Shown piece by piece: positions 24,748 through 62,172 of a stretch of DNA of 64,000 nucleotides. A program made the position numbers and the translations under genes. Below the pieces are notes generated by a model. That model made no database searches and had not been told where the DNA came from. It was given only the letters and a program-made list of their open reading frames with translations. Location: positions 22,885 to 86,884 of the forward strand of contig JAHDGD010000003.1 of assembly GCA_020627825.1 (NCBI GenBank), written 5' to 3'. Positions within the stretch are counted from its first letter, which is position 1, and each line of letters starts with the position of its first letter. This DNA comes from Saprospiraceae bacterium. Lineage in GTDB: Bacteria > Bacteroidota > Bacteroidia > Chitinophagales > Saprospiraceae.

Positions 24748-25659
24748 CTAGCTGTTATCCAATTGCGGTTCATGAGCATGTTCCAATCCTCCTCCACAAT
24801 GTGGGCAAATATGACGATGAGTTTCTTCTGGATCTTCTCCTCTATTCTTTCTGTCTTTTTCTTTTTGATCTTTTATCGCTTGAACAAAAGATCCCGATAA
24901 AATACCAGTAGGCAAAGCAACCAGGCCTATTCCTAAAAGTGCAATAACGCCTGCAAGCATCTTTCCCATAGGAGTAACGGGATAAACATCACCATAACCC
25001 ACTGTTGTGAGGGTGGCAATGGCCCACCACATCGAAGAATAGATATTTGGAAATTGTTCCGGTTGTTGATCATGTTCTACGGTAAAGATGATGGCAGAAG
25101 ACAAGACTAATAATATACCAGTAATAAATATCGTAATGAATAGCTTTTCTTTTTCTTCACGAATCACGTCACCTATCATCTGCATAGAACTATTGTAACG
25201 ATTCAACTTAAAGATTCTCAATAATCTCATAAGTCTTAAGACTCTAATGAAGCGTAAATCAAGCATTCCCGTTTCTGATGTTCCACCACCTAAATGCTGT
25301 GTATAAATTAATATTCCAAGCTCCAAATAGAATGGCAAAATCGCTAGAAAATCGATAATAGCCATAGGTGAAGTAATATATTTCACCACCGCTTGCCATC
25401 TATTCAAATGTGGGTATTCTAAACTTGCTGTGTAAATTCTTGCGAGATATTCTAATGTAAAAATGACGACCGCAATAATCTCAAAATTTAAAAAGATCGA
25501 ATGATATTCTTTGGACAATATTGCATCAGATTCTAGAATTACAGCTACTATACTAGCTAAGATTAAAATCATAATTCCAGTGCTCAAATAAGCATTTGCT
25601 TGGGAATCTGCTTGATTATCGTCGTCTATAAGTCGGAATACTCGTTGTCTGAAGGTCAT
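24748..25659 (-). CDS. Voltage-gated-type K+ channel with C-terminal zinc-knuckle-like tail
   Basis: A 303-aa six-TM inner-membrane channel. S1 is about residues 25-43, S4 carries the regularly spaced arginines RFIRVLRLMRLLRIF (136-150), the pore helix leads into the K+ selectivity filter TTVGYGD (218-224), and S6 follows (234-258). The cytoplasmic tail is highly charged and ends with CPHCGGGLEHAH, where Cys285, Cys288, His294 and His296 could bind one zinc ion; this is unusual for a small Kv-type channel. It is the last gene of the operon, 12 bp after the vWA/FHA gene, so it is probably co-expressed with the ubiquitin-like system. Whether it is a functional partner (sensing or ion flux) or a passenger is open. 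Confidence 0.88.
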   Translation of the reverse strand: MTFRQRVFRLIDDDNQADSQANAYLSTGIMILILASIVAVILESDAILSKEYHSIFLNFEIIAVVIFTLEYLARIYTASLEYPHLNRWQAVVKYITSPMAIIDFLAILPFYLELGILIYTQHLGGGTSETGMLDLRFIRVLRLMRLLRIFKLNRYNSSMQMIGDVIREEKEKLFITIFITGILLVLSSAIIFTVEHDQQPEQFPNIYSSMWWAIATLTTVGYGDVYPVTPMGKMLAGVIALLGIGLVALPTGILSGSFVQAIKDQKEKDRKNRGEDPEETHRHICPHCGGGLEHAHEPQLDNS

Positions 25660-25671
25660 AGGGTATTTATT

Positions 25672-28011
25672 TTAACGTTCTTTATACTGCATTTTAGAAT
25701 TTGAATATCTACCAAGTTGAATGATGTCATCGTTATTTAATTCAACTTTTTGGTTTTCAGGAATGATTACACCATTAAGAAGAGTTTCATAGAGTGCGAT
25801 AATGTGTACTCTACCATTCTCCAGAATGAGCATAGCATGTTTATCTTCCACATGTTCATCATTCCATTTTATAAACACATAACATTTAGCACTTCTTCCT
25901 ATAAATACTTCCATTCCATTCTTCAACCATTTACTTATTGGCTTGACCATGCCATTATATTCTTGTGGAGAAAGATAAATCAATTCGAAATTTTCAAGAG
26001 AGGCAATAACTTTTACGATAAGAGCACCTAGAATACCTCCTAATAATATGAAGCTAAGAAGCTTCGCTAATTCATCATTGGGAACTAACTCTAAAATTCC
26101 AAAATAAACACAATAAGCAACGATGCATGAGATCACTCCTCCAAGAATTCCTTTTTTCCACTCTATTGTAGAATATATCGATAAAATTATTCCAAAAAGG
26201 ATGCCATACACTGTCCAGTTTATTAACCCGCTAAAGAAAACACTATATTGAACATTTCCTAAAAGTGTATATTGTAAAAAGAATCCACTGCCAAAGACTA
26301 AAAATGAGATGATAACACCTATGAACACCCTCAAGCTTACTCGAAGTGGTGAAAATTTTCGTGTACTACCTAACTCTTCAGCAACCGTAATCGCTCCTAT
26401 TAAAGCAGTTCCCAGCAAGCCACCTTGAAAAGTTTGTTCTAAAAAAACGGACGTATTTTGCGCTATACTGGTAATGTTATTGAAAGCTGCAGTGGGATCT
26501 AGACTTGATTCATCAAAAAATGATTTTACATATTCGTTTAAACCATTCAATTTTGAAATTCGGAATAAACCACTATACAAGATCCAACCTATAAGTCCAC
26601 CTAAAGAGCCGTACCACAGCCAATTGTATATTTTAGAATTACCTTTTTGCGAGAAGAAGGCTGTTTGTGTTTCTTCTCCACCTTTTCCAGGACAAGGGTC
26701 TTGAAACTCCATACAAGATGGAAAATTGGGGCAATATCCTAGAGCATCCCATGTTTCAAGTGTCGTTATTTGATTGCATTTCACAACGACCTTATCACCC
26801 TCTTGAATAATATCTTGTGTTATGGGGTCCCGTTTTATTTTGTTTGCTTCAGGTACATATTTTACAACATGTTTCTTCAAGAATTCCCTTCTTTTAAAAA
26901 ATGGAAGTAGGTAAATAAGTAAGAATAGAGTACCGAATACCAATAATAAGCCGATTAATAATAACAAAAACCAGTTCATTCGATCCTCTTTCAAAACCCC
27001 TATATAAACAGGTTCAATTGAGGCTCCTATTTTATATTCCTTTTGATCGTATTGTACACCAAAGTCTTTAGATTTCCATTGTAACAGAAGATTTCTTAAT
27101 TCCCCTCTATATTCATTACAAGAAGGTTTCGTATGGAAAACATAATCGTTATTGTACTCTGCTAATTGATCAACCAAAATTTTCGTAATACTACTCGGAT
27201 CAGATGTAAAATAATGTTGATCTTCAAGAGCTTCCGTTAAAGACGGTAATTCTTTTAGAAAAGTAGAATCTACTCCATTCCCTATACCATAGGTTAAAAT
27301 CATTAATTCATTTGTAATATCTGCTACTCGTATTGCTTTATATACATCTTTGGATGTTGGTCTTTTCTTGTTATTTAGGCTATAGTAAGGATTTCTGAGG
27401 TTATCGTTTTTTCCATCTGAAAGCAAAATCAAGATTTGTTTCCCTTCTTCTTCGGATAATTCTTCCACTTTATCAATCATCGCTCTGAATAAGTCGGTAT
27501 CTTTTCCACCTCCTTCAGGTGTTGGATATTTACTCAATTCCTCATCTATATTAAATTTATTGATTTTAACGGAAGGAAAGATATCATCATGAAAAGCGGC
27601 AAGTTCGAATTTGGAGCCAACAGGTAGTGAAATCTGATTGATTACATCTTTTATGGTTTGTTTCGATTTACCAAGTCTATCATTTATTTTCATTGATCCA
27701 CTGTAATCCAATAAAAACAAAATGTTGATTTTAGTTTCTATATATCCTTCAGGAGGTGAAGCATTAAATCCAGTGATAGCTAATCTACATTCACCAAGGT
27801 CTTTCCCTGGGACTTGATCAATAAACTTTATGGTATTTGCATTTATATTCGTATTCGGACCAGGAGGAGCACTTACATAAATATCAAGTATATTAAGCGA
27901 ATCATCTTGACTGATTCGAGTAATCTTAATACTATCTTGAGCAGTGAGAATTGGAACAGATAGGAAAAATATAAAAAATGTGAAAAAATATCGTTGAAGG
28001 TATAATCTCAT
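25672..28011 (-). CDS. vWA-TM-RING-like-multiTM-FHA membrane protein (E3 candidate)
   Basis: A 779-aa membrane protein. Order: signal peptide (1-24); periplasmic vWA domain with an intact MIDAS DYSGS (102-106) and LLSDG (196-200); TM at 346-370; a Cys-containing cytoplasmic module (394-441); several further TM helices (about 463-640); and a C-terminal FHA domain (700-779) with FIGRS and DEHVEDKHAMLI. The 394-441 module reads DPIT...VVVKC...LETW...YCPNFPSC, very like a RING/U-box in spacing, with Cys412, Cys427, Cys433 and Cys440 but DPIT where the first CxxC would be. Beside E1, E2, UBL and JAB genes, an E3-type role is a sensible inference. FHA suggests reading of phospho-threonine. The start follows the JAB gene stop by 1 bp. 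RING identity is unproven. Confidence 0.7.
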   Translation of the reverse strand: MRLYLQRYFFTFFIFFLSVPILTAQDSIKITRISQDDSLNILDIYVSAPPGPNTNINANTIKFIDQVPGKDLGECRLAITGFNASPPEGYIETKINILFLLDYSGSMKINDRLGKSKQTIKDVINQISLPVGSKFELAAFHDDIFPSVKINKFNIDEELSKYPTPEGGGKDTDLFRAMIDKVEELSEEEGKQILILLSDGKNDNLRNPYYSLNNKKRPTSKDVYKAIRVADITNELMILTYGIGNGVDSTFLKELPSLTEALEDQHYFTSDPSSITKILVDQLAEYNNDYVFHTKPSCNEYRGELRNLLLQWKSKDFGVQYDQKEYKIGASIEPVYIGVLKEDRMNWFLLLLIGLLLVFGTLFLLIYLLPFFKRREFLKKHVVKYVPEANKIKRDPITQDIIQEGDKVVVKCNQITTLETWDALGYCPNFPSCMEFQDPCPGKGGEETQTAFFSQKGNSKIYNWLWYGSLGGLIGWILYSGLFRISKLNGLNEYVKSFFDESSLDPTAAFNNITSIAQNTSVFLEQTFQGGLLGTALIGAITVAEELGSTRKFSPLRVSLRVFIGVIISFLVFGSGFFLQYTLLGNVQYSVFFSGLINWTVYGILFGIILSIYSTIEWKKGILGGVISCIVAYCVYFGILELVPNDELAKLLSFILLGGILGALIVKVIASLENFELIYLSPQEYNGMVKPISKWLKNGMEVFIGRSAKCYVFIKWNDEHVEDKHAMLILENGRVHIIALYETLLNGVIIPENQKVELNNDDIIQLGRYSNSKMQYKER

Positions 28012-28012
28012 T

Positions 28013-30091
28013 TTAATTTAAATTAGAATTCTCAATATCAACCCACTGGAACCATCCTACTCCTTCTTTTCTATCTGTAGAATTATTCATTCTTCCTGAA
28101 GATTGTCTTGTAAAAATTGACATATCTAGTCCTTTTGTTAAACTATCAATTTCCATAGCAACTTGATAATCAGAAGGAAAGTGTCGTTGTACGGATAAAT
28201 CACTTGTAGATAAAAACAAACCATGGCCAGGGTGGGTATGGAACCAACCTATAACTTCTAGATCTGGATTTTTATCCTGAGCATCACCTAGTTCATCTAC
28301 AATTGTTTTTGTACCTATTTCTATTTTAAATACATCATTGTATTCAGGAACAAATGGCACAAATTTTTCTACAAGTACTTGTAAAGCATCCTGATGATCA
28401 GAAAACCTTCCCATCATAAAACCTCCCACCTCTGGTATAGCACCTTGCAATTCGTTTTGAATACCATCACTGGAACTTTCCGCAAGAAAAGCGTCCAAAT
28501 CACCAATAAATTCAGGAGTTAAGTATACATTTTGAATTTTGGAATCAAGCCAAATATGTGAAAGATTTAGATTAACTGTTTTGTTAGCATTAACCAACTT
28601 TACAAAGTCAGCATAAGGTATTGGTTTACCAGCTACTTTTTTCTTCGTAATCTTTATTTTTCTAGAGGACAAACCTGTGCTTCTTGCAACTGATGATTTT
28701 GGTGTCAATTCTGAAGCTTTTCGTAATGCTGTTTTTTGTCCAATCACAATTTTTCCTTTCTTTTCACTATTCGATGTTGGGACAGAATCGTTTGTTGTCA
28801 ATTTCCCAGGTTTAGTATCCATTGATTGTTCAGCAGTTACTTTATTTTGGGCCATTTTTTGCTGAATTTTTTTCTTATTCTCCGCTTGACGTTTTTCTTT
28901 ATTGCGTTTGTTAAGAAAGGCAAATACACCTAGACTTACCAATAGAAAGCTAAGGGCATAGATCAATAATTTTGTATTGCTTTTTTTCTGCGCTTTATTT
29001 TCTAACAATGCCGCTGTTTTATATACTTCCAATCCTTGTGCGTTGACAATATTCAATTCATTGAATGCTCCTTTAATTCTATTTTCATTCAGTAATCCTG
29101 CACTTAGTTCCACAGCTGAATCTCTGGTAAAAGCAGGTATATTTATTGTATTGAGCAGATTCATTTCTTCTTCTCCTACCTTTTTCAGGTTTAGCTGCAA
29201 AGGCATTTCAGTATTTGCAACCTTGATAATTGAAATGTCATCCTTATGAATAATCGACAAGTTGTATAACTTAAAATCTTCTTCTTCAGGCTCATCTTTG
29301 TAAAGACTATCTACAATAGCTTTCACATCCTCTACTAATTTCTCATTATCTAGTTCATCAATATCATCAGAATCTGATCCTCTAGCATCAACTAACTTCG
29401 ATTCATCAAGTTTTTTTTGCTCTTTTTCAAGCATCTCTCTCGCTTCAATAACAGTTTCTGCTTTATTGGCTAGTTTTACATATCGATTAGCCTTTGGTAA
29501 TTCTCCATATGTTGTCAGAAACTCTTCAACTTCGGATTTGCTTTCTGTATCTACTTCTCGCCATATTTTCCCGATGTCACTTGAAGAAAGTTCTTCTAAC
29601 TTATCAGACGGAGTAACGATCCTAAAAGACTGTGTAAACTGCCCTTTACCCCCTTTGTACGTAAAAGGAATATTTAGCTTGACATCTCCTTTACCCTCAA
29701 TTTCAAAATAAATTTCACGAATATAATTTTCGATAGGTTTTAAAGAAACTACTTTTGTTTTCTGATTTATGGCAGCTTTTGCTTTCGAGTCAAATTTAAT
29801 TTCTTCTGTATCAAACGAAATTTCAGGTTGTCCTTCCATCTCATACCATAAGAAGTTACTCATATGGAGAATAAAACTATTTACATCAGATTCCACTTCA
29901 ACTTCTCCGCCATTTCCATCGAAAGAAACAGTGGGTTTACCAGGAAGATTATGTTTAAGTTCTACAGAAAACTGACCTACTTTTTTAGTCCCATCTAGAA
30001 TTTTAATCTTTTGTTGAGCATGAGATACACTACAAAAAATAAGAAAGATTGACACATAAAAAGCTCTTACAATTGGTTTCGGAGGTTTCAT
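28013..30091 (-). CDS. Membrane-anchored JAB/MPN+ (JAMM) isopeptidase
   Basis: A 692-aa protein. Signal peptide 1-25; a periplasmic beta-rich region (26-160) and helical/coiled region; TM 374-393; a basic cytoplasmic linker; and a C-terminal JAMM metalloprotease domain (about 500-692). The catalytic set is complete: Glu554 in PEVGGFMMG, then HTHPGHGLFLSTSD giving His618, His620, Ser628 and Asp631 (E, HxH, x7, SxxD). The family cleaves ubiquitin-like proteins from substrates or trims their C-termini, with zinc. The cytoplasmic placement of the protease matches soluble E1, E2 and UBL neighbours. The linker carries KIKITKKK, like the basic tags of nearby proteins. The gene is 3 bp after the E2 gene and 1 bp before the vWA/FHA gene. 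The periplasmic half is not recognised. Confidence 0.88.
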   Translation of the reverse strand: MKPPKPIVRAFYVSIFLIFCSVSHAQQKIKILDGTKKVGQFSVELKHNLPGKPTVSFDGNGGEVEVESDVNSFILHMSNFLWYEMEGQPEISFDTEEIKFDSKAKAAINQKTKVVSLKPIENYIREIYFEIEGKGDVKLNIPFTYKGGKGQFTQSFRIVTPSDKLEELSSSDIGKIWREVDTESKSEVEEFLTTYGELPKANRYVKLANKAETVIEAREMLEKEQKKLDESKLVDARGSDSDDIDELDNEKLVEDVKAIVDSLYKDEPEEEDFKLYNLSIIHKDDISIIKVANTEMPLQLNLKKVGEEEMNLLNTINIPAFTRDSAVELSAGLLNENRIKGAFNELNIVNAQGLEVYKTAALLENKAQKKSNTKLLIYALSFLLVSLGVFAFLNKRNKEKRQAENKKKIQQKMAQNKVTAEQSMDTKPGKLTTNDSVPTSNSEKKGKIVIGQKTALRKASELTPKSSVARSTGLSSRKIKITKKKVAGKPIPYADFVKLVNANKTVNLNLSHIWLDSKIQNVYLTPEFIGDLDAFLAESSSDGIQNELQGAIPEVGGFMMGRFSDHQDALQVLVEKFVPFVPEYNDVFKIEIGTKTIVDELGDAQDKNPDLEVIGWFHTHPGHGLFLSTSDLSVQRHFPSDYQVAMEIDSLTKGLDMSIFTRQSSGRMNNSTDRKEGVGWFQWVDIENSNLN

Positions 30092-30094
30092 TGT

Positions 30095-30895
30095 TTACTT
30101 TTTATTTATGACAATTTTTTTGGGGCCTGCTTTAATTTTTTTCAAAATACTGATCCTCTTTTTTCCATCTGACGGGGTCGTATCATCGGAATCATCAGAA
30201 GAAATTTCATCTGGAGGAGGTTTTTGCTCCATATTGAGTTCAACCTTTTGAACAGTTTTTTCTTCTGCCTCCATTTTAGGTAAAACTGCGTTGTCAATTT
30301 CGGAAACGATGCCTTCAGGTTCACCACCTTTTATAAGTGGTGTATTATCAATAACTATATCTTTATATTTATTTACTATCCCATTGGGTTCAGCATAAGC
30401 CATTACCCACTTAGCAGAATGAATATCTTCTGGAAAAGGAGGAGTGTTTTCAGCATGATATTGCTTATACTGAAGAATTTCACCAATTCTTATAATCAAA
30501 AGATATAGATCAAATCCAAGACCAAAACCTTTTGTATTTCCACAAATTCGTCCTTTGTATTTTCCATCTGACTTGATATTCGGATGCCATACATTAGTTT
30601 GCATGTATAATTCAGGAGCTTCTATTGGATATCGAGGAGGGAAAGTTATTCTTGCTGTATGTTTAAAGCCGTAAACAGGTGTTTGATCATTATTTATAGC
30701 AGTAATACTTCTAAACAAAAAATGGACATGATATACACATGGAATCTTCAATGGACTTCTTGTTTCTATGACCTCCCATTCTATAACATCACTATCTAAT
30801 TCGAACATAGACAAGTGATCTTTTGCTAACCTTTTATAGAAAGGATTCTTTTTAAATAAACCACTGTTAAAATCGTAAGTAGGTTTCTTGTTCAT
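30095..30895 (-). CDS. E2-like ubiquitin-conjugating (UBC fold) protein
   Basis: A 266-aa cytoplasmic protein. Residues 1-170 form a UBC core: the strand-turn FPPRYPIEAPELYMQT, then the hallmark HPN (104-106) and candidate catalytic Cys118 in GRICGN, followed by helices that include AKW. There is an insertion of a few residues between HPN and Cys compared with eukaryotic E2s, as expected for divergent bacterial E2s. It would accept the UBL from the E1 as a thioester and pass it to lysines. The tail (190-266) is a low-complexity Glu/Asp then Lys region ending KAGPKKIVINKK. It lies 22 bp after the UBL gene and 3 bp before the JAB gene. The catalytic assignment is by motif; activity is inferred. 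Confidence 0.87.
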   Translation of the reverse strand: MNKKPTYDFNSGLFKKNPFYKRLAKDHLSMFELDSDVIEWEVIETRSPLKIPCVYHVHFLFRSITAINNDQTPVYGFKHTARITFPPRYPIEAPELYMQTNVWHPNIKSDGKYKGRICGNTKGFGLGFDLYLLIIRIGEILQYKQYHAENTPPFPEDIHSAKWVMAYAEPNGIVNKYKDIVIDNTPLIKGGEPEGIVSEIDNAVLPKMEAEEKTVQKVELNMEQKPPPDEISSDDSDDTTPSDGKKRISILKKIKAGPKKIVINKK

Positions 30896-30917
30896 ATGTG
30901 AAAATTTAGGCTAGTTT

Positions 30918-31202
30918 TTACTCTTTTCCTGGTACAAGTCTAGGTGCTAGGTATAATGTATCTCCATCTTGAATTTGTAAATCAAATAAAGTTTTTGTAT
31001 CCCCTATTGATACATTTTTCCTTTTAAATATTAAGTCATAAACATAAGGCTGTCCTTCAGGATCTACTCTAGGAGCTACTTCAGCACTTAATAATTCGTC
31101 TTTAATTTCTTTACCTGTAGAATAAATTGGTAATTCTACTTCAATCTCGTCGCCGCTTGGCATAACTCGAATGATAATCGCAATAACTTCTGAATTCGAC
31201 AT
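30918..31202 (-). CDS. Ubiquitin-like beta-grasp protein (YukD/EsaB-like)
   Basis: A 94-aa protein with a single beta-grasp domain: a first hairpin (VIAIIIRVMPSGDEIEVELP), a helix (TGKEIKDELLS), and the ubiquitin-type end FDLQIQDGDTLYLAPRL. YukD/EsaB proteins of this type accompany type VII secretion, but small variants also sit with E1/E2/JAB genes in bacteria, as here. The C-terminus is VPGKE rather than GG, so Gly92 would be freed only if the last two residues (KE) were removed, for which the adjacent JAB enzyme is a candidate. Alternatively the terminal carboxylate is activated directly. Placed between the E1 and E2 genes with 24- and 22-bp gaps. This is the likely modifier of the system. 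Confidence 0.83.
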   Translation of the reverse strand: MSNSEVIAIIIRVMPSGDEIEVELPIYSTGKEIKDELLSAEVAPRVDPEGQPYVYDLIFKRKNVSIGDTKTLFDLQIQDGDTLYLAPRLVPGKE

Positions 31203-31226
31203 TTGTATTATTTATTGGTTTTTATT

Positions 31227-32435
31227 CTAAAATGTTAAATAAGGTTCATCTTTCGTACATTCTACAAAGAAGATATCCTTTTCAGTCTCTACAGTCAAAA
31301 TCTGTAAAGGTGGCACTCCACAAGCTTTCAAACTCACTTTCCCATCTTCGAAATCCTCGCTAATGTAATCAACATATTTCGTAATTCCTAGTACTTCCCC
31401 TATTTCTTCTTGATATTCTGCTTGGGCAACTTCACTAAAATGAGGTTCAGGAATAAGAACTTTATGAGATTTATCCGTACTCATTGACGTAACCTCCGTG
31501 ATGATTTTGTAATTCAAACTTATGGAAATCTGCTCAGCTTTTAGCTGTTTTTTTATTTTTTTAATGGCATCTTCCACTGTGTCTTCATGAGTCAAATTTT
31601 TCATACGTATTATCTCATCTTTTTGCAATGCATAATGACTTTCGCATTCATCTTTTAATGGAGGAGAAGCAAAATTCACAATCCAATTATTCATCCCATC
31701 GTATGTAAACTGTTCACCCATCATGGATTTATCCTCATAATTATGAATAATCTTTAAAGCTTCTTGAACTTGCATTGCCGCTATAATGGAAGACGATATA
31801 GGTGTTGTAGGCACTCTACCTGCTGAACTATTCCTTTGCGCAACATCAGCACAACCTAATTTGGTACGAATATTTGCCCAGTCTGTATCCGTCAAAGCAC
31901 ATTCGTAACAAGAAACCTCATTTTTGTAAACATTCAATTGACCCGACATATTCAAAATCGCTCCATCAATCCATACTTTGCCTGTCTTATAAGCATAACG
32001 GTTTATAAATAATCGAGCTATCCGATTATCCAAACATCCTATTATCACATCCATTCTGTCGAAAACACCAAGTCCTACATCAATCATAATATCACCATTA
32101 ACAGCTTGAACGTTAATATTGGGATTCATCTCTTTTATTCTTTCTGCTGCTATAAGACTTTTAAACTTGTCTCTTTTTATATCCTTTTCTCTGAAAAGAA
32201 CTGATCTGCATAGATTAGCATATTCAATTGTATCAAAATCAACAATAAAAATATTCCCCACATTCATCAAGGCTAAATTCTTAAGTACTTCATTTCCCAA
32301 TGCCCCAGCACCTACTACCATTACTTTGGCATTTGCCACTTTGTCTGCATCCCACCAAGACATTAATCTAAACGTATCGTCCCAGTGTTCTCCCTTCTTA
32401 CTGATATTCTGAAGATTCAATTTTTTCTTTGCCAT
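31227..32435 (-). CDS. E1-like ThiF/MoeB-family UBL-activating enzyme
   Basis: A 402-aa protein with a Rossmann-type adenylation domain: nucleotide loop GAGALG (42-47), acidic residues in VDFDTIEYANLCR (66-77), Lys90 and Asp136 in GCLDNR. These match the ATP and Mg sites of ThiF/MoeB/UBA enzymes, which adenylate the UBL C-terminus. The Zn-binding pair is partly kept: CYEC (176, 179) is present, but the second CxxC is absent. Cys195 in KLGCADVAQ lies in the crossover-loop region and is a candidate catalytic cysteine. The last 150 residues form an extra alpha/beta domain, possibly for E2 or UBL docking. The start is 2 bp after the ATPase gene's stop. E1 identity is well supported; thioester chemistry is inferred. 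Confidence 0.9.
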   Translation of the reverse strand: MAKKKLNLQNISKKGEHWDDTFRLMSWWDADKVANAKVMVVGAGALGNEVLKNLALMNVGNIFIVDFDTIEYANLCRSVLFREKDIKRDKFKSLIAAERIKEMNPNINVQAVNGDIMIDVGLGVFDRMDVIIGCLDNRIARLFINRYAYKTGKVWIDGAILNMSGQLNVYKNEVSCYECALTDTDWANIRTKLGCADVAQRNSSAGRVPTTPISSSIIAAMQVQEALKIIHNYEDKSMMGEQFTYDGMNNWIVNFASPPLKDECESHYALQKDEIIRMKNLTHEDTVEDAIKKIKKQLKAEQISISLNYKIITEVTSMSTDKSHKVLIPEPHFSEVAQAEYQEEIGEVLGITKYVDYISEDFEDGKVSLKACGVPPLQILTVETEKDIFFVECTKDEPYLTF

Positions 32436-32437
32436 GT

Positions 32438-34423
32438 CTATTTTTTCTTAATCACAATTTTAGGTTTCTTGACAATCTTAGCTTTTGGAGGAGCTGATTC
32501 TGTTTTTTCTTTGGGCTTTGAGCCCAAAACTATCTTTGCTTTTGGTTTTATGGAAACTTTAGGTTTTTTAGGTGCTGGCTCTTCAGGCGGTGCGGAAATC
32601 TCTTCCTTCTTTTTTGCTTTGATTTTGGTTTTAATCACGCGCTTTGGCTTAGGAGCTTCTTCTTGCTGACCTGATTCATCATCACCTTCTCCTTCCAACA
32701 GTCTTTTTATCGCCTCATCTTCTTCATCCAATGCGGGTTCCATCTCACTAACTTGTTCTTTCTGAACATCATTTTTTGGGGCTTGACCCCCACTATTATC
32801 AGACGAATCACTTATCCCTAGAATTGCAAGTGCTTCTTTTCGAGCATCATCATCTGCCTCTGATCCGCTAGATTTAACATTGATTTTCAAGTCTCGTTTC
32901 ACCTTCTTTTTCAGGCTCATCTTTTTCCTTGTCCCATCACTTGCTTTATACTCTACTGGACCATAAGTTTCGATCAACTTATCTATAAAATCCAGACCAA
33001 GCTCATATTGCTCATGTTGAGCACGCGCCCAACTTTCCGTAATCATATCTACATCAATAGTTGCAAACATAGCTTTATACTGAGCTTTTGAAAGAACGGA
33101 ACGCATCTCAACACCATCTATATAATGAGAAATTGCTGCATCAGCTAACTGGATAAATTTAACTTTTAATATGTTGCTATTTTTTATCCACTTCTTTATA
33201 TCATCCCACTCATCGAATAATGAAGCATCATTTATTGACAATTTTTTTCGATCCATGGCCAATATGGTTGGAATCTGCATAACCAATTCACCTAACTGAT
33301 CCATTGTTATGGCTAATATATCGATTGCTTTCTTCCGATCCACGTTTACTGCTTTCAGTTTACGCCCATTGTCATTAATCAGGTGTGGAATAATCCGTTT
33401 AAACAATGATTTATTGTATTCCGACAGATTCGCATAATCCGTTTTTGCCATCGCTAGGCTGTCACCGCCTTCTGCAGCATTCAATAAAGAATCTACACTT
33501 TTCGAACCGCTTTTCTTCAGCCCTCTTGCAACAGCTTTAGATTTCTGACCAGTAGCTCTGAAATAATGAGCTTTTGTAATGGTTTTGTCTTTATGATTTC
33601 GCTTCCATTCCAGCCAAGTTCTAGACATCAACAATTGCAATTTTCTCAACTGATCGCTATCTTGCAGCAACATAAGCATGAGCTCTTTTCCAAGATCATC
33701 AGCTACTACACTTTTCACCAATTTAGAAGGTGCGTTTATTGCAAGACTTAATCCATTATTATCTAAGAATTTCAGTTTATGCATTCCCATATTCAAAGCC
33801 TTGTGAAACTTTGGATCTTCTCTGAGTTTTGGAGACTTAAAATCATCGCGATCAAATGCAGTTACAAAAAACAACGGCAATAGTTTTTCTGAGTATGCAC
33901 GATAAATCAGCCTAAAGAACTTGTGTCTCTGACGAGGATCAACATCCATATCAAAAACGTCAATCATATCATCTATAGCAATAAGAATGTTGATTTCTCT
34001 ATCGCCTATAATACGTTCAATAACCCTTACTAAACCGTAATCATTTTTCATTAGTTGTTGATAAACTTCTTCCTCCATACTGGGAATAATTTTATCACTA
34101 ATTTTATTAACCGGATTTACGATGGCTTTTGCAAGCGCTAAAACAGGATTTGTATCAGGCATCATAAAAACACATCGCCAACTACTCCCATTGTACCCAT
34201 CAAAAGGTTTCTGTCGTAAATTTGGAATAAGGCCTGCACGGATAAGAGAAGTTTTACCCATTTTGGGTTCGCCTATTATACTAATAAGTTTACGTTGACG
34301 GATCTTAAGTTTGAGGGTTGAAATATCTTTTTCTCTGCCGAAAAACAAATTGTCTTCATCCTCTAAATAAGGACGATAGAACCCATTTTCAAAACCAGGA
34401 TATGGATTAACTATTTTCAGCAT
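32438..34423 (-). CDS. STAND-type (nSTAND1-like) P-loop ATPase with Lys-rich C-tail
   Basis: A 661-aa cytoplasmic NTPase and the first gene of the ubiquitin-like operon. The N-terminus NPYPGFENGFYRPYLED...FFGRE matches the nSTAND1 entry motif (PYPGLRPF...FFGRE). Walker A is GEPKMGKTS (51-59), and Walker B is INILIAIDD (144-152). The helical middle (170-500) resembles the winged-helix and sensor part of STAND ATPases, although no WD40 or TPR sensor repeats follow. The tail (540-661) is low complexity, Lys/Glu/Pro rich, with repeated PKxxIKxK units ending KPKIVIKKK. STAND proteins usually work as ligand-triggered switches, so it may gate the UBL system or bind machine parts. The gene starts at 34423, 261 bp from the M23 gene of the injection-system operon. 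Confidence 0.78.
   Translation of the reverse strand: MLKIVNPYPGFENGFYRPYLEDEDNLFFGREKDISTLKLKIRQRKLISIIGEPKMGKTSLIRAGLIPNLRQKPFDGYNGSSWRCVFMMPDTNPVLALAKAIVNPVNKISDKIIPSMEEEVYQQLMKNDYGLVRVIERIIGDREINILIAIDDMIDVFDMDVDPRQRHKFFRLIYRAYSEKLLPLFFVTAFDRDDFKSPKLREDPKFHKALNMGMHKLKFLDNNGLSLAINAPSKLVKSVVADDLGKELMLMLLQDSDQLRKLQLLMSRTWLEWKRNHKDKTITKAHYFRATGQKSKAVARGLKKSGSKSVDSLLNAAEGGDSLAMAKTDYANLSEYNKSLFKRIIPHLINDNGRKLKAVNVDRKKAIDILAITMDQLGELVMQIPTILAMDRKKLSINDASLFDEWDDIKKWIKNSNILKVKFIQLADAAISHYIDGVEMRSVLSKAQYKAMFATIDVDMITESWARAQHEQYELGLDFIDKLIETYGPVEYKASDGTRKKMSLKKKVKRDLKINVKSSGSEADDDARKEALAILGISDSSDNSGGQAPKNDVQKEQVSEMEPALDEEDEAIKRLLEGEGDDESGQQEEAPKPKRVIKTKIKAKKKEEISAPPEEPAPKKPKVSIKPKAKIVLGSKPKEKTESAPPKAKIVKKPKIVIKKK
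32510..32528. repeat. TTTGGGCT-TTG-AGCCCAAA palindrome inside CDS
   Basis: An eight-base stem with a 3-nt loop lies inside the coding sequence for the Lys-rich tail of the STAND ATPase. It belongs to the dispersed palindrome family that is otherwise mostly intergenic (24551, 24719, 21296). It may have been inserted into a permissive low-complexity tail. Confidence 0.5.
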
Positions 34424-39477: not shown

Positions 39478-39484
39478 GTTTGTT

Positions 39485-43579: not shown

Positions 43580-43602
43580 TATGCAAGCTAAAATACGATT
43601 AT

Positions 43603-43628
43603 ATCACCTTCCTTTCGAGGAAGGTGAT
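43603..43628 (+). other. Stem-loop between two tube genes
   Basis: ATCACCTTCC and GGAAGGTGAT form a 10-bp stem around TTTCGA in the 98-bp gap between tube genes. The tract downstream is only partly T-rich, so it is not a clear terminator. It could stabilise or partially end the transcript to raise the sheath/tube output relative to baseplate genes. Confidence 0.5.
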
Positions 43629-43677
43629 TATAATTGTTCTTCTTTTCATAAACCACATTTTAAACAACAAATAAAAA

Positions 43678-45492: not shown

Positions 45493-45496
45493 GACT

Positions 45497-47299: not shown

Positions 47300-47309
47300 T
47301 AGAATAGAT

Positions 47310-52845: not shown

Positions 52846-52857
52846 ATCCTGTCGATT

Positions 52858-55590: not shown

Positions 55591-58500
55591 CAGTAAAACA
55601 TACGATTCAGCAATTAGTATTTGAAATTGATGGATTCGAAAATAATTCTCAATTCCAATCGATCGCTTCAAGAATTAGTTCCTGGGTCAGAGTGTCATTG
55701 GAACCAATGCTGAATAGTGTCCTAAATGAATTTAATATTGAAGGTCATCACATTGTCATCGAAAAACTTGAGCTAGATCTCGGATTTTTAAATCAAAACA
55801 ATCTTACTTTTAATATTGGCAGACTTTTACGTGCAGAACTCGTAAAAAAAATACGCCCAATTTACTCAAAGGCTATATATGAAGTAAAGCACGGTTCCGT
55901 GTCTACCAAAGATTATATACTTGAAAAAGATAAAACAATTGATAGAGTACTTCAACAAAAACAGGCAAGTACTCCGTATGAGCTAAGTAAAGACCCTACA
56001 CATTATTTCAGTACCATAACACATTCTAAAGTTGTACCTGAAGATGCTCGATATTTCGATGCTGTTGTACACTACTTGGAATATGGCTGGTTACCAAGAT
56101 ATTTAGATATCCCTATGCAGCAATTTGACGAAATATTTGTCGAAACATTATCAAAGTACGGTGATGAAGTATCAAGTCATTTTGGGCGAAAGCCCGCCTA
56201 CAAAAGAGAAAAAATAACAGAACGAATCTTTCGTCAAACTGCTAAAAATCGTTTTCTTAAAAAAAATAAAAAAGCAGTAAAGGCTCTTTCAAAAACAGTA
56301 TTGGGAAAAAATGCAGACATTCAGCTACAATCCTTCATTGCCTTATTAGATTATGCAGCTTCAACTTCTCAATCTTTTACAAAAGTGGAAACTGAAAAAC
56401 TTAAAGAATTAAGCAAAGAAATCGGAATTTCCAATCAATTGGTAAAAAGTATTAGTGGTATTAATTCATCTTCTTTTAATGCATTTGAACAACTAGATGA
56501 AAGAATAGAGGAAATTCTCAATGCTGAAGATAAAAGTTTATTCAACACTTTACTTCAATCCAATTTCTATAAATCTTTGGTACAATCTTATGTCCCGAAA
56601 ACAGATTCATATGCCGTACTGATACGATCTTTAATCCCAGTTATTTTATATCCTGAAGAATCACAAAATTTACTTGCAGCAGCTCCTGAATTATTCGATA
56701 CTGAAAATGAAATAATTAATCAATTATATGGTAAATCTCCCTTTATAGTAAATAAATTATTCCTTTCCATAAAAGAATATAGCGGAAGTGAAAAGGCCAC
56801 TTTAGAATATATAACAGCATTTATAAATAAACTGTCAAAGAAACAAATCAATAAGATTTTTAATGCTTATTTCAGCTACTTTTCTAGGTTATCTCCTCAA
56901 TTAAATAAAATCAACAAAGTCCTTTCGATTGAAACATATAAAATATTTTATTCTTATGTTATCAATTCAATAACAGGTAAAAAAATCCAATCACCGGCAG
57001 TCCCAAGTAAGGAAATTACCTTTAGTCACACTCAATTACTTGGCATAATTTCAATTTCTAATGAAACACCTGAAAAGATTCTGAAAACTTACTTTCAATC
57101 TATACAATCATTCTTTTCAATTACTTCTATTGATGAAATAAAACCTTACGTCGAATTGAATTCAGTATCCTTTTCACCTAAAGAAATCATACGTATAATT
57201 CATAAAAAGTCAAGTGACTTGTTATCAAGCAGTGAAAAATCTAAATTAGTCTCTCAAAAATTAACTACTCAAGAAAAAGAATTTCTACTAGACGAATACG
57301 GGAATCCCATTCCAAGCGATCATGAAACAAGCCAGGAAGATAGAGATGATCTTCGTATAAACCAAATTCGCGATGAAGCCAAACATTCTTTGTCAAGCTC
57401 GAATAACAAAGCAGATCAACAAGAAAACATCTCTGATAACATACACCAATCTCAAGATTTAGCCAAGCAACAAGATGCTTTTAGCTTCAAAGATGATGAA
57501 AATAGAACTGGGCAATTACCACAATCTAAAGATCAAAAAACTTCAGATGGTAATGAGATTCATGAATCTTCAGAAAGCAGTAAGGATAAAGAATCATCTG
57601 CTAGAAATAAAGATAATGAAAAGAAATATGCTGAAGATTCTGTGACAAAAGGTAAAGTCACGTCAAAAGAAGATCAAGAAAGAACAACTTCAACTAGTGG
57701 CTCTCAAAAATCAAACCAATCGGTTGAGGATAATATTCATGATGTTTTACAATTGGATACATCTATCAAAGGAAGGAAATTCACTAAACAAGAAGAGGCT
57801 GATGGAATTGTTTTCGAGAATTTAAGACAAGAACAACAACTCTTAAAAGAACAAAACAAGCAGGTAGCGCTTTACAGCTTGAACACGCTACTTAAAGACT
57901 ACTATCTACCTACTTCCTTTTCAAAAGAAATAACAAAAAAACTAGGTGAATCAACAAAAAAAGTTGTTCAAAAAAACAAAGGTCGACAAGCCAGTTCAAA
58001 ACAAAATACAAAAGGATCTAAGGAGAAGCTAAAAGAGTCAAATTCAAAACCAACATCCGAATTAAAACCACAAAAGCTTATTCTAAAGGACGTAAAACTA
58101 GAAACGAATGTAGCTAAGTTATTAAATGTTTTAGCTTCTTATAAAATCAAAAAAACAGAAATAAGATCTTTACTTTCCAATAAAAACATTCTAAAAAATC
58201 CTGTATTAGCTAGACTCGATAGAAAGTCTTTCAGAGCATTCATTAATTTAGCATTACCTACGAGCAAAGCCAGACTGTTTATTCAATTTATCGAGAAACA
58301 CGAACGGATTTTTAAATTGAATGTAAGCCTTCAACAAGTACAATTAATATTCATTAAATTGATCAAGCATCACAAGCAAATCAATTCTGAGAATATTTTC
58401 AAATACTTCTATGAAGAATTAAAAGTTTTCAAAGGATGGACCTATGATATTCATAAAAAGAAATTAATCGCGCTGTATGAAAGCGGTAAAAGTGATTATT

Positions 58501-59099
58501 TAACAGAAGAGGAGAAAGAACAATATATAAAGTATGTTGATGAAATCCCTACATATCTAGGACTTGAATTACGTGATACAAAGAAAAAACTCGAAGAAGG
58601 AATTCCAGTAAAAAATGCTGGCTTATGCTTACTTTGGCCTTTCTTCAAAACACTTTTTTCAGTCAGTGGTTATCTAGACCCAAAAGGAGAATTCAAAAAT
58701 GTTGAAATGCGGGAAAGAGCAACATTGTTGCTTCAATATTTAGCTGTTAAATCAACAGCAATTGAAGAACCTTACTTAGCTCTTAATAAAATATTTACAG
58801 GACTTCCACTGGAAGAATCACTTCCACAAGAAATTGTCCTTACCGAAAAAGAAAAAGATATTGCAGATGCATTGCTATTAAATGTAATCAAACAATGGCC
58901 CTCCTTCAATAACTCTAGTCCTGACAATCTACGTGGTTCCTTCATTATAAGAGACGGGGTTTTATTTTTCCGAGGCAAACAATGGGTTCTTCGAGTTGAA
59001 AACAAGGCGTTTGACTTATTATTAAGTAAGTTACCATGGGGTTTTTCAATGATTCGATTGTCTTGGGTTCCTTATATAATTAAAGTTGAATGGAATTAA
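55587..59099 (+). CDS. Tape-measure protein (Pvc14-like)
   Basis: A 1170-aa protein. The beginning (HTIQQLVFEIDGF ... NIEGHHIVIEKLELDLGFL) and the end (NAGLCLLWPFFKTLF ... LRGSFIIRDGVLFF ... LPWGFSMIRLSWVPYIIKVEW) are hallmarks of the contractile injection system tape-measure family. Between them lies a hydrophilic low-complexity section (about 570-735, Ser/Lys/Glu/Asp rich) and helical segments, whose length probably sets machine length. A GGGCGAAAGCCC palindrome occurs within the coding region at 56184-56195. It overlaps the Pvc12 gene by 4 bp. Downstream is an 86-bp gap. Confidence 0.93.
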   Translation: MTVKHTIQQLVFEIDGFENNSQFQSIASRISSWVRVSLEPMLNSVLNEFNIEGHHIVIEKLELDLGFLNQNNLTFNIGRLLRAELVKKIRPIYSKAIYEVKHGSVSTKDYILEKDKTIDRVLQQKQASTPYELSKDPTHYFSTITHSKVVPEDARYFDAVVHYLEYGWLPRYLDIPMQQFDEIFVETLSKYGDEVSSHFGRKPAYKREKITERIFRQTAKNRFLKKNKKAVKALSKTVLGKNADIQLQSFIALLDYAASTSQSFTKVETEKLKELSKEIGISNQLVKSISGINSSSFNAFEQLDERIEEILNAEDKSLFNTLLQSNFYKSLVQSYVPKTDSYAVLIRSLIPVILYPEESQNLLAAAPELFDTENEIINQLYGKSPFIVNKLFLSIKEYSGSEKATLEYITAFINKLSKKQINKIFNAYFSYFSRLSPQLNKINKVLSIETYKIFYSYVINSITGKKIQSPAVPSKEITFSHTQLLGIISISNETPEKILKTYFQSIQSFFSITSIDEIKPYVELNSVSFSPKEIIRIIHKKSSDLLSSSEKSKLVSQKLTTQEKEFLLDEYGNPIPSDHETSQEDRDDLRINQIRDEAKHSLSSSNNKADQQENISDNIHQSQDLAKQQDAFSFKDDENRTGQLPQSKDQKTSDGNEIHESSESSKDKESSARNKDNEKKYAEDSVTKGKVTSKEDQERTTSTSGSQKSNQSVEDNIHDVLQLDTSIKGRKFTKQEEADGIVFENLRQEQQLLKEQNKQVALYSLNTLLKDYYLPTSFSKEITKKLGESTKKVVQKNKGRQASSKQNTKGSKEKLKESNSKPTSELKPQKLILKDVKLETNVAKLLNVLASYKIKKTEIRSLLSNKNILKNPVLARLDRKSFRAFINLALPTSKARLFIQFIEKHERIFKLNVSLQQVQLIFIKLIKHHKQINSENIFKYFYEELKVFKGWTYDIHKKKLIALYESGKSDYLTEEEKEQYIKYVDEIPTYLGLELRDTKKKLEEGIPVKNAGLCLLWPFFKTLFSVSGYLDPKGEFKNVEMRERATLLLQYLAVKSTAIEEPYLALNKIFTGLPLEESLPQEIVLTEKEKDIADALLLNVIKQWPSFNNSSPDNLRGSFIIRDGVLFFRGKQWVLRVENKAFDLLLSKLPWGFSMIRLSWVPYIIKVEWN
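56184..56195. repeat. GGGC-GAAA-GCCC palindrome inside Pvc14-like CDS
   Basis: A further copy of the dispersed palindrome, with the same GAAA loop as the one at 21296. It encodes FGRKPA in frame. Its identity with the intergenic version makes chance less likely, though a single short match cannot exclude it. Confidence 0.4.
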
Positions 59100-59185
59100 A
59101 ATTTATCGTATATTAAGGTTAATTTTGTACCCCTACCGCATTTTAAATCGTTTAATATGTGTATTTTGAACTAAAATGTTAAAAG

Positions 59186-60022
59186 ATGAACCTTAAAACA
59201 ATCATTTCCATCAGTTTTTGCCTTTTTATATTCGCCTCAGCATCTGGTCAAATTAATTTGAAAAACATAGTAAAAGATGTTGAAAGAAGCATAAACAATA
59301 GAACTGAACGAGCTATAGAAAACAAAGTTGATGACGTATTGGATAATGCAGAGGATAAAGTAAGAGGTAGAAATAAGAAGAAGAAAAACGATGGAGAACG
59401 TTACAATTCGAATGGTGAAACTAAAGTGATCAAAGAAGTACTTCCTTTTAACTTTAGTGGAAATTTAACCATTAACATTGATGGAACTGGGAATGTTGAA
59501 GATAACATCATTACGGTCGTTTCAGATAAATACGATATGGCAGTTCGTCCTATGTTGGTAAAAAAACCTCACAACCTAATCATATATAACAAACAAGAGG
59601 AAGCTGCTACTAAGATAAACACCGAACTATATGAAGATAAGGCTTTGAAAGAATTCCACATGTATGAACAGTACGAAGCTAACAATACCAAAACGGAAAT
59701 GGAGCGTACTTCGGATATAAAAGAAATAGAAGGCTTTATTGCAAGAAAATATGTAGTCGATGGAGATGATTATGAAGGTGTTGTATGGTTAAGTGCAGAA
59801 GTAGACCTTGATTATGACCTATTTGCTTCTCTTATGGAATTTCAACGATTAGATCTAGGAACAATGTATGGTTTTCCTCTTGAAATGCACATAACATACA
59901 AAAGTGGTGACACTATGGACTTCTTTGTAAAATCAGTTGAAGAAGGAAACCCAGATAAAGCACTTTTCGATACAAAATCATATGACCTCATAGACATGAC
60001 CGACTTGAAATCGGGTAATTAA
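59186..60022 (+). CDS. Exported protein between Pvc14 and Pvc15 genes, DUF4412-like
   Basis: A 278-aa exported protein with a clear signal peptide (MNLKTIISISFCLFIFASASGQ), a basic/helical region (30-75), and a beta domain containing IKEIEGFIARKYVVDGDDYEGVVWLS, reminiscent of DUF4412-type lipocalin-like domains. It overlaps the ATPase start (TAATG). Exported proteins at this place are unusual in PVC-type loci, and it could be a periplasmic accessory or immunity factor. An 86-bp gap upstream may carry a separate promoter. No toxin motif is seen. Confidence 0.6.
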   Translation: MNLKTIISISFCLFIFASASGQINLKNIVKDVERSINNRTERAIENKVDDVLDNAEDKVRGRNKKKKNDGERYNSNGETKVIKEVLPFNFSGNLTINIDGTGNVEDNIITVVSDKYDMAVRPMLVKKPHNLIIYNKQEEAATKINTELYEDKALKEFHMYEQYEANNTKTEMERTSDIKEIEGFIARKYVVDGDDYEGVVWLSAEVDLDYDLFASLMEFQRLDLGTMYGFPLEMHITYKSGDTMDFFVKSVEEGNPDKALFDTKSYDLIDMTDLKSGN

Positions 60023-61380
60023 TGACAAGTAACCAAAAGAACAGATCAGAATTAAACGCCAACACTTTAGCAAAAGAATTTGTGTGGCTTCATAAAGTCA
60101 TGACATTCAGATTTGCAAAGTACTTCGGTGCAGATACACCGTATAAAAGACTCTCGGAAATAAAGGCACCCGTTCTCACTAGAGATAATTCAGTTTATGC
60201 TCAGCTCGTAAAACGTCACAAGCTAAGTATAGAAGAACGAATTGTTATTTTACTTGCTCTTGCACCTCACTTATCACCTCAATTGCTAGATATGTTCTTC
60301 ACAAAGAATGAAACGTATGGTCGAGGTTTTACTGAATTCGGAGGAGTTAAAGGTAATCAGCATAGTGGATTTTTGCCAACAGGTGAAACTGCTGCATTTG
60401 TAATTGCTGGAACAGACATTAACAAACGTTTCGAAGTGATGTCTATATTTGATGAGTCTTATATCTTACGAACGAAAAACATAATTAGTTTAGAAAGATC
60501 AAAGAGTACAGAACCTATTCTTTCAGGTATTTTAAATATTTCAAAAGATTATTTAAGTTTTTGTACAACAGGCGAAGATTATGTACCTCCATTTAATTCT
60601 GAATTCCCAGCGCAAAAGATAACCACAAAGTTAGAATGGGAAGATTTAATTGTCGAACCTTTCGTTTTAGACGAGGTTGAAGAAATTCTAAAATGGTTAG
60701 ACTTCAGGCACCAGATTATGGATGAATGGGGTCTGCAAAAATTTCTAAAACCGGGATATAGAGCCTTATTCTATGGCCCTCCAGGTACAGGTAAAACACT
60801 AACTGTTAGCCTATTAGGAAAATCAAGTAAACGTGAAGTGTACCGTGTCGATCTATCGAAAATTGTTTCAAAATATATAGGAGAAACGGAAAAGAACTTA
60901 GCAAATATTTTTGATCAAGCAGAAAATAAAGAATGGATCTTATTCTTCGATGAAGCAGATGCCATTTTCGGAAAAAGAACCAATACACAAGATGCCAAAG
61001 ATCGATATGCCAATCAAGAAATAGCCTATCTTCTTCAACGAATGGAGGACTTTCCTGGCTTATTAATCTTAGCAACTAACTTAAAATCCAATATGGATGA
61101 AGCATTTGCCAGAAGATTTCAAAGTATGATTTACTTTCCTCAACCAAGTCACAATCTTCGTTTAAAACTATGGAAAAATACGTTTAATAAGTTCGAATTT
61201 GATGATGACGTTGAATTAAAAGACATAGCTAAAAACTATGAATTAACAGGTGGTACAATCATCAATATTTTAAGTTATGTAAGTTTACGAGCAGCTGAAA
61301 AAGGATCAAAAACTATAAGTAAAAAAGATATCATTCAAGGTATTCGAAAAGAATTTCGTAAAGAAGGTAAAACGATTTAG
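60022..61380 (+). CDS. AAA+ ATPase (Pvc15-like)
   Basis: A 452-aa AAA+ ATPase. Walker A GPPGTGKT (252-259), Walker B with DEAD at Asp310-Glu311 (WILFFDEADAIFG), sensor ATNLKSN, and the arginine finger in DEAFARRF are visible. The N-terminal 200 residues form the family's helical cap, with RSELNANTLAKEFVWLHK. In PVC loci this enzyme is required for assembly or cargo loading. Its start overlaps the previous stop codon. The gene ends the main run of machine genes; the PAAR gene follows after 300 bp. Confidence 0.93.
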   Translation: MTSNQKNRSELNANTLAKEFVWLHKVMTFRFAKYFGADTPYKRLSEIKAPVLTRDNSVYAQLVKRHKLSIEERIVILLALAPHLSPQLLDMFFTKNETYGRGFTEFGGVKGNQHSGFLPTGETAAFVIAGTDINKRFEVMSIFDESYILRTKNIISLERSKSTEPILSGILNISKDYLSFCTTGEDYVPPFNSEFPAQKITTKLEWEDLIVEPFVLDEVEEILKWLDFRHQIMDEWGLQKFLKPGYRALFYGPPGTGKTLTVSLLGKSSKREVYRVDLSKIVSKYIGETEKNLANIFDQAENKEWILFFDEADAIFGKRTNTQDAKDRYANQEIAYLLQRMEDFPGLLILATNLKSNMDEAFARRFQSMIYFPQPSHNLRLKLWKNTFNKFEFDDDVELKDIAKNYELTGGTIINILSYVSLRAAEKGSKTISKKDIIQGIRKEFRKEGKTI

Positions 61381-61680
61381 GGCGTCCGGGCGCTACGATA
61401 CAGTGCTCGCTATTCGCTCGTCCCTTAACTTTATAATTTTGAAATTAATCTACGCATTCTTAAAGTGCATACTCAAAAGCCTTATCAAAACACAAAAAAC
61501 GGGATAAACACTTCCTCATCGCTGACGCATAAATTTATCTTAGATTCAACAATTTTACCATGATATTCTTAGCCGTACTTTATTGAAAAAATTGAAAAGA
61601 TTATAATTCAGAAAATTGATCTTTCCATATATATTGACAAAATGAGGAAAATGATTTAAATTCGAGTAAAAGAAATCATT
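61381..61680. other. Intergenic region with GC-rich islet
   Basis: 300 bp between the Pvc15-like and PAAR genes. The first 47 bases (61381-61427) contain GGGCGTCCGGGCGCTACG and GCTCGCTATTCGCTCGTCCC, a composition unlike the AT-rich surroundings, then typical AT-rich sequence follows. I see no gene. The islet resembles dispersed GC-rich repeats of Bacteroidota genomes, and the AT-rich part probably carries a separate promoter for the PAAR gene. Confidence 0.5.
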
Positions 61681-62172
61681 ATGCCAAAACCAGCAGCACG
61701 GATAGGAGATTCTACGTCACATGGAACACCACTAGGAGGAATCGGAATAGGCTCCACGAATGTTTTAATAGGAGGAAGACCTGCATGGAGAGCGATTCCT
61801 ATGGCCGCAGCTGCAGGATTACAAGCTGCCAAACAAACTACTAATATAACTTTACAAAGTTTGAAAGCAGCAAGAATTGCTGCAAGTGGTACTCCAGGAG
61901 CTCCAGCAGCTGTTGCTGCAGAGTTAGCAGGTCAAGCAACTGCCTCTGCGACCATGTCGTCTATGATTTCATCTATAGGTGCAATGTCTGACATTTCATT
62001 ATGTCCTGTTCCTCTTCCTACCCCACCACATGGACCTGGTGTAGTTACTAATGGAAGCCCTACCGTTTTGGTGAACAATATGCCTCTTGCTCGAATGGGT
62101 GATACAATTGTAGAAGCTCTTGGTCCACCTAACAAAATAGTTTCAGGTGCTACTTCCGTCATGGTAAAATAA
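61681..62172 (+). CDS. PAAR-type spike tip protein (Pvc10-like)
   Basis: A 163-aa protein. MPKPAARIGDSTSHGTPLGG is the PAAR/DUF4150 opening, and the C-terminal half repeats the pattern (PTVLVNNMPLARMGDTIVE). A helical Ala-rich insertion (50-105) is present between the halves. It would sharpen the VgrG spike. It is separated from the main cluster by 300 bp. No toxin domain is attached. A weak AT-rich stem (ATAATCT/AGATTAT) with a short T-run follows at about 62169-62200. Confidence 0.88.
   Translation: MPKPAARIGDSTSHGTPLGGIGIGSTNVLIGGRPAWRAIPMAAAAGLQAAKQTTNITLQSLKAARIAASGTPGAPAAVAAELAGQATASATMSSMISSIGAMSDISLCPVPLPTPPHGPGVVTNGSPTVLVNNMPLARMGDTIVEALGPPNKIVSGATSVMVK

Follow-up and report, generated by a model that had tools for sequence, protein, structure and literature searches.

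Bacterial Bil systems attach a ubiquitin-like protein (UBL) to phage tails, and SUMO-interacting motifs bind by beta augmentation. The present analysis concerns a ubiquitin-like conjugation cassette that lies beside a contractile injection system (CIS) of the Pvc type in a 64,000-nucleotide stretch of DNA from a Saprospiraceae bacterium (GenBank assembly GCA_020627825.1, contig JAHDGD010000003.1, positions 22,885 to 86,884), hereafter called the window. The contig is 86,884 bases long and the draft genome consists of 4.46 Mb in 297 contigs. Judged by sequence, the relationship is more than one of neighbourhood: the cassette and two types of contractile machine have a common terminal peptide on defined parts, and functional integration of the cassette with these machines is likely.

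According to PMC11354881, Bil is distinguished by a tandem-domain, ISG15-like UBL (BilA), an E2 (BilB) with CEHH in place of HPN, and an E1 with one inactive and one active adenylation domain. UBL/E1/E2/JAB sets likewise make up the prokaryotic ubiquitin operons predicted by Iyer, Burroughs and Aravind in 2006 (PMC1779556), where UBL and JAB were also noted in phage tail assembly clusters. Concerning the machines, TssN of the subtype iii type VI secretion system (T6SSiii) has been proposed to dock the baseplate via a ubiquitin-like domain, and TssR, which contains a vWA domain, is a member of the T6SSiii membrane complex (PMC10781749). In Streptomyces, the membrane protein CisA is required for the recruitment and firing of the cytoplasmic CIS (PMC12237407), and in T6SSiv a fibre-position protein (Aasi_0556) has been proposed to anchor the CIS to the inner membrane (PMC12210884). 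CisA differs from the present case in that no ubiquitin-like step appears in the part of the paper available. Titles and abstracts yielded no literature in which a cell's ubiquitin-like conjugation is tied to its own contractile machine, most subscription journals being outside the coverage.

The cassette is a seven-gene operon on the minus strand (24748-34423) with intergenic gaps of 1 to 24 bp that encodes, in the order of transcription, a STAND protein, E1, UBL, E2, a membrane JAB protein, a vWA-transmembrane-FHA protein and an ion channel. As the original prediction had proposed, E1, UBL, E2 and JAB stand together in this operon, all four with Pfam matches, and 261 bp separate its start at 34423 from the start of the CIS operon at 34685. 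The first gene (32438-34423) encodes an nSTAND1 NTPase (Pfam nSTAND1, 1.3e-36) with the C-terminal basic tail KPKIVIKKK. The E1-like adenylating enzyme of the ThiF/MoeB type (31227-32435; ThiF, 5.9e-52) has 402 residues with a single ThiF domain, and its Cys195 is invariant in 15/15 aligned relatives. The UBL (30918-31202; YukD-type profile, 8.6e-7, above the cut-off) is a one-domain protein of 94 residues in which Gly92 is followed by Lys-Glu; this Gly is kept in 23/23 aligned relatives with 0 to 6 residues beyond it. YukD was not among the 50 fold matches listed for the UBL, which were ubiquitin and ISG15, and EssC or WXG100 genes were not noticed in the window beside it, although no search was aimed at a type VII secretion system.

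The E2 (30095-30895; UQ_con, 1.8e-8) carries HPN and Cys118, followed by a disordered linker and the basic C-terminal tail KKIVINKK. The membrane-anchored JAB (MPN+) protein, a predicted isopeptidase (28013-30091; JAB, 1.5e-8, at the C-terminus), has by hydropathy a signal peptide, an outer domain, one transmembrane segment at 375-393 and the C-terminal JAB domain. The catalytic residues that had been read from the window were upheld by the alignments, HPN104-106 and Cys118 being invariant in 37/37 E2s and the E/HxH/SxxD set of JAB (E554, H618, H620, S628 and D631) in 13/13 relatives. The operon ends with the vWA-transmembrane-FHA protein (25672-28011; VWA, 2.8e-9; FHA, 4.9e-8; hydrophobic segments) and a voltage-gated-type ion channel (24748-25659; Ion_trans, 1.8e-36). 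The sequence signs of a ubiquitin-like cascade, namely E1, the E2 cysteine, the deconjugase and the C-terminal Gly of the UBL, are therefore all intact. Variants were seen among the relatives, for which G numbers denote genomes and L numbers loci. One cassette contains a tandem pair of E2 genes (L015:9333-10666), and a small second JAB-like gene (about 205 residues) follows the membrane JAB in L019, L020, L021, L023, L024, L026, L028 and L029. A second set (L136/L137; G084:C685:23181-26881), in which a JAB accompanies a pair of longer UBL-like proteins, lies about 13 kb past the cassette, a similar pair is present in G083, and G067, which holds several E2 copies, has one with an internal TAA (G067:C122:11783-12484).

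Like Bil (BilABCD), the cassette encodes E1, E2, UBL and JAB together, with a JAB that would expose the terminal Gly of the UBL. However, its UBL has one domain whereas that of Bil has two, its E2 has the canonical HPN whereas that of Bil has CEHH (PMC11354881), and its E1 is a single-domain enzyme whereas that of Bil has two adenylation domains. A JAB-family deconjugase is common to both, but that of the cassette is membrane-anchored, and the cassette has STAND, vWA-FHA and ion channel partners and is linked to an injection machine of its own cell. As three Bil-specific features (tandem UBL, HPN-less E2 and two-domain E1) fail, the cassette was rejected as a Bil system, and the relation to Bil on which the original prediction drew is not a close one. 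A fused E1-E2 of the cyclic-oligonucleotide-based antiphage signalling (CBASS) type, represented by PADLOC E1-E2, was rejected as well; the genes are separate and the PADLOC models match the ThiF part, not the E2. The 2006 operons differ in that the 6d E2 lacks the classical His whereas the window E2 has HPN, and a text search of the available part of PMC1779556 found FHA, type VI and injection systems all unmentioned.

The distribution of the cassette was followed across genomes. When 84,980 species genomes were scanned with an E2 alignment, 29 loci were recovered from 27 of them, and five further cassette genomes came from other searches (G000, which is the genome of the window, G227, G341, G286 and G435), bringing the total to 32. 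The relatives, in named collections, belong to Saprospiraceae, Lewinella, Portibacter, Chitinophagales and a few Bacteroidales. When the co-occurrence of cassette and injection genes was surveyed, as had been suggested, the cassette and a contractile machine shared a contig in 17/32 cassette genomes. Rather than lying mostly away from injection genes, which would have spoken against the original prediction, 15 of the 17 cassettes on contigs of at least 45 kb had a CIS or T6SSiii no more than 50 kb away, with distances from E2 to sheath or TssC of 10.5 to 49.5 kb. The neighbour was a Pvc-type CIS in nine genomes (G000, G060-G064, G069, G074 and G227) and a Bacteroidota T6SSiii in eight (G068, G070, G071, G072, G076, G080, G081 and G341). 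The T6SSiii of G071 was recognised by Pfam matches to TssC, TssD, TssN, TssK and TssB, while G070 and G076, on short contigs, were assigned by custom profiles for TssG/ClpV or TssF/TssG alone. In G071, G072 and G341 the genes follow one another on one strand in the order TssK-M23-E1-UBL-E2-x553-JAB-vWA. Thirteen unlinked cassettes are on contigs of 5 to 43 kb.

Among 396 genomes of the order, CIS_tube or TssC was present in 16/18 cassette genomes and in 107/378 others (Fisher 3e-7, kinship not removed); G090, G103, G165 and G187, with E2 matches of 1e-5 to 1e-9, were scored as cassette-negative. Under uniform placement, with a chance of 0.1 per genome, 15/17 would have an estimated probability of 1e-13, but the genomes share ancestry. 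By the E1 tree there may be about ten linked lineages, with three changes of machine label, of which at least one is backed by supported branches. In L021/L024 and G079 the genes next to E1 gave ankyrin, EGF, DUF3037 and integrase matches and no machine parts. No relatives were found in 2.9 million viral contigs, which is uninformative on defence either way.

A short basic, beta-like peptide (K-I-x-I-K-K) was found at the ends of unrelated proteins, namely E2, STAND, an M23 peptidase and the predicted connectors of both machines, which are a T4 gp9-like protein in the CIS and TssK in the T6SS. The peptide is C-terminal in E2, STAND and the gp9-like protein (51754-52665) and N-terminal in M23; in E2 a variable linker leads into a basic stretch with alternating residues. 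With the first pattern, the C-terminus matched in 17/32 E2, 7/9 STAND and 6/8 51754-type proteins compared with 8/307 unlabelled open reading frames of the same loci, and 109 background reading frames of G000 gave no C-terminal and one N-terminal match. A slightly wider pattern in a large protein search matched 61/75 E2s and 26/28 relatives of the gp9-like protein. The M23 motif was recognised in 12/12 intact starts by eye and in four by pattern; the M23 of L033 is a fragment and that of G066 is incomplete in the stretch retrieved. TssK was in view in five of the eight T6SS-linked cassette genomes and carried the tail in 5/5. By eye only, near-motifs were seen on TssK of G066 and G077, where the T6SS is on a separate contig. 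For the gp9-like protein, the tail of G074 was judged by eye, and the G063 copy falls outside its contig.

In contrast, the connector tail was absent from cassette-free genomes, both from gp9-like proteins (0/18) and from TssK (0/17), so that TssK of cassette-free loci is tailless, and the M23 motif was found in 0/32 cassette-free T6SS windows. The gp9-like controls derive from 19 matching genomes of 51, with G046 (4.7e-4) and weak second matches of G350 and G408 dropped and G103, which has the weak E2 match, included among the 18. The T6SS controls comprise 32 of 38 genomes, TssK being located in 17 of the 32 windows. Additional tails were seen at the C-terminus of vWA-FHA in L021, L024, G073 and G074, at the N-terminus of E1 in G064 and at the N-terminus of the small JAB in L024; AAA and tube proteins were without one. 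The UBL is mostly acidic, with net charges from -3 to -10, in contrast to the basic tails; over 35 rows the Spearman correlation between UBL and E2-tail charge is -0.49. In L030 and L031, which are one sister pair, the signs are reversed: the UBL stands at +1/+5 and the tail of E2 is acidic, the alternating pattern being unchanged. Moreover, the TssK motifs of G071, G072 and G341 contain no Lys, suggesting that the tail is a docking peptide more than an acceptor site, and the tail as UBL acceptor was disfavoured for that reason.

The CIS operon runs on the plus strand from 34685 to 62172, an M23 peptidase and three envelope genes preceding the machine itself. The M23 peptidoglycan peptidase (34685-36082; M23, 4e-30; Csd3_N2, 2.4e-15) has the cytoplasmic N-terminus MSRPKIVIKSK and, by hydropathy, a single transmembrane segment at 59-83. 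The three envelope genes (36230-39778), which encode a signal-peptide protein and two transmembrane proteins without a family match, are kept beside the CIS; a PDB sequence search gave no useful match for the first of them (36230) or for the gp9-like protein. They are followed by a Pvc16-type cap (39782-40300; Pvc16_N, 2.9e-22), an Algo2-like cap-adaptor protein (40326-41390; PDB 7adz_1A, the AlgoCIS cap adaptor, 6.6e-7), the sheath (41429-43060; Phage_sheath_1C, 2.3e-10; PDB 9r9h, 1.7e-137; AlgoCIS 7adz, 1.1e-98), three gp19-type tube proteins (43115-44618; Pfam) and a CIS_tube/LysM hub, spike and gp25 (44800-47726; Pfam). The predicted gp9-like connector and contraction trigger (51754-52665), whose disordered C-terminus ends in KKLTIKKR, lies between baseplate proteins in the Pvc11 (47763-51752) and Pvc12 (52858-55590) positions. 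A tape measure protein (55587-59099; CIS_TMP, 1.3e-70), a Pvc15-type AAA ATPase (60022-61380; AAA, 1e-29) and a PAAR tip protein (61681-62172; PAAR, 1.8e-14) complete the operon.

The Pvc-type part set of cap, sheath, tube, hub, spike, gp25, tape measure and AAA is thus present. The parts list in the original prediction was supported by Pfam for cap, sheath, tubes, spike, gp25, tape measure, AAA and PAAR, while Pvc11 and Pvc12 had no Pfam match and were assigned by gene order and size alone. The set resembles Pvc-type systems and AlgoCIS, the AlgoCIS sheath included, but the window adds the transmembrane M23 protein, more membrane genes, a nearby TssR homologue and a tailed connector. The closest sheath and tube structures are the recent PDB entries 9r9h, 9r9i, 9r9n and 9rce. 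A T6SSiii identity was ruled out for this machine; its sheath is of the Pvc/phage type and the genome's TssC is on contig C109. On that contig (C109:31170-32453) the genome has another contractile machine, of the T6SSiii kind, and the stretch read contains neither a cassette nor a tailed TssK.

The feature, which had been drawn from 24748 to 62172, is real but extends further left to a TssR homologue (913-3456, minus strand; N-barrel, 8.5e-15; VWA, 6.5e-12; C, 6.4e-8; M domain below the Pfam cut-off), the sole TssR match in G000. TssR was found in 7/9 CIS-linked cassette genomes, sharing the cassette contig in five (G000 and G061-G064), and also in G286 and G435. It was present in 9/17 cassette genomes tested vs. 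3/51 cassette-free CIS genomes (51 of the 85 available), and all three of the latter also carry TssC. As the profile misses 26/37 cassette-free T6SSiii genomes, TssR was set aside as a marker, and its absence from the eight T6SS-linked cassette genomes says little. The window CIS seems to have envelope parts in common with T6SSiii and is probably cell-anchored and envelope-docked, and the membrane genes together with TssR argue, indirectly, against free extracellular release. Eight relatives pair the cassette with T6SSiii and the window has TssR, but the TssNQOPR complex, in the available part of PMC10781749, is without E1/E2/JAB or an M23 partner.

Other neighbours include a TerB-domain protein (23513-24490, plus strand; TerB, 5e-8), which recurs near the cassette in G061-G064, G069, G073 and G074, and a PKD-domain protein, likely a lipoprotein (19262-21127, minus strand; Pfam PKD), with phmmer relatives next to TerB in G061-G064. 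Beside the TssR gene stand two giant proteins (5673-11261 and 11276-19051, minus strand) that combine Ig/PKD repeats with type IX secretion sorting domains and are likely surface adhesins. An ABC ATPase (57-884, minus strand) and, on contig C253 to the left of the window, a likely permease of 511 residues come immediately past TssR, on its strand.

The chances are about even that the cassette has come to serve envelope-docked contractile injection machines as a dedicated partner, likely switching docking and firing. The original idea that it acts on the cell's own tail-like machine gained partial support from the linkage and the common peptide, and was widened by the eight T6SSiii pairings, which make the Pvc-type CIS one partner of two. 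A specific mechanism can be offered tentatively. JAB would trim the UBL wherever residues extend past the Gly, and E1 and E2 would hand it on, at the inner membrane, to a target. The basic tails may bind the acidic UBL as SUMO-interacting motifs bind SUMO; the mark would therefore bring together, at a single place in the envelope, the baseplate connector (gp9-like in CIS, TssK in T6SS) with the cell-wall peptidase, licensing wall opening and contraction. JAB, whose outer domain would be periplasmic, and the vWA/TssR proteins might then sense the envelope and take the mark off. In a bolder version, rather less likely than not, true ubiquitin-like conjugation would run the cell's own contractile weapons, the cassette having been plugged into both Pvc-type CIS and T6SSiii and the one peptide having arisen anew on each connector.

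Several observations weigh against this reading. The tail pattern was defined after the tails had been seen, and the tail counts represent few events and not independent draws because one change on the tree suffices for gp9-like proteins and two for TssK. The connector of G227 lacks the tail despite linkage, as does TssK of the separate T6SS of G000 and of G085. The charge correlation falls to -0.28 (p 0.12) without L023 and L030-L032, and the gp9 C-terminal domain fold match rests on a model with a predicted local distance difference test (pLDDT) score of 67.6. A linker motif in the window JAB was dropped, as it occurred in 2/38 other JABs vs. 2.1 expected. The cassettes of G073 and G079 are on contigs of more than 150 kb that show no machine, although in each the E1 side of the cassette is close to a contig end, and G286 and G435 have the cassette without CIS_tube, sheath or TssC matches.

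The possibility was considered that the cassette is an antiphage system which marks phage tails as Bil does and merely happens to occupy the same variable island as the injection system. Defence is a known role of bacterial E1/E2/UBL/JAB operons (PMC11354881), and the E1 is matched in its ThiF domain by PADLOC E1-E2 models. However, the failure of the Bil-specific features, and the fact that the cassette accompanies two machine types with terminal peptides on their parts and not on cassette-free counterparts, render it quite improbable. It is unlikely that the UBL is mainly a soluble, non-conjugating docking adaptor whose enzymes only process or recycle it: the dock proposed for the TssN ubiquitin-like domain (PMC10781749) is a precedent, and the tails resemble binding peptides and occur on the connector, but the catalytic residues of E1, E2 and JAB are kept in every aligned relative and the last Gly of the UBL is invariant.

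The strongly basic tails, and the position of the M23 motif next to its transmembrane segment, would also suit inner-membrane targeting peptides for acidic lipids, the real substrate being elsewhere in the envelope, for example in M23 or x553 turnover. The alternating hydrophobic residues fit a beta strand over a lipid-binding helix and the charge-reversed tail of L030/L031 would not bind acidic lipids, making this explanation unlikely. Finally, the UBL might mark cargo or effectors for loading, or misassembled particles for removal. The CIS operon does include a Pvc15-type AAA ATPase, a type linked to effector loading in Photorhabdus (PMC11495950). Nevertheless, the tail sits on the connector and the wall peptidase and not on a recognised effector, and its absence from AAA and tube proteins leaves this role very doubtful.

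In the literature searched, by titles and abstracts, no role of ubiquitin-like conjugation in a bacterial secretion machine was found. Cultured hosts of the cassette include Portibacter marinus, P. lacus and Neolewinella xylanilytica. If the preferred reading of the cassette as a partner of the cell's own injection machines is true, the short tails would be accessible to peptide-binding tests, and bacterial ubiquitin-like systems would gain a housekeeping or weapon-control role besides defence.

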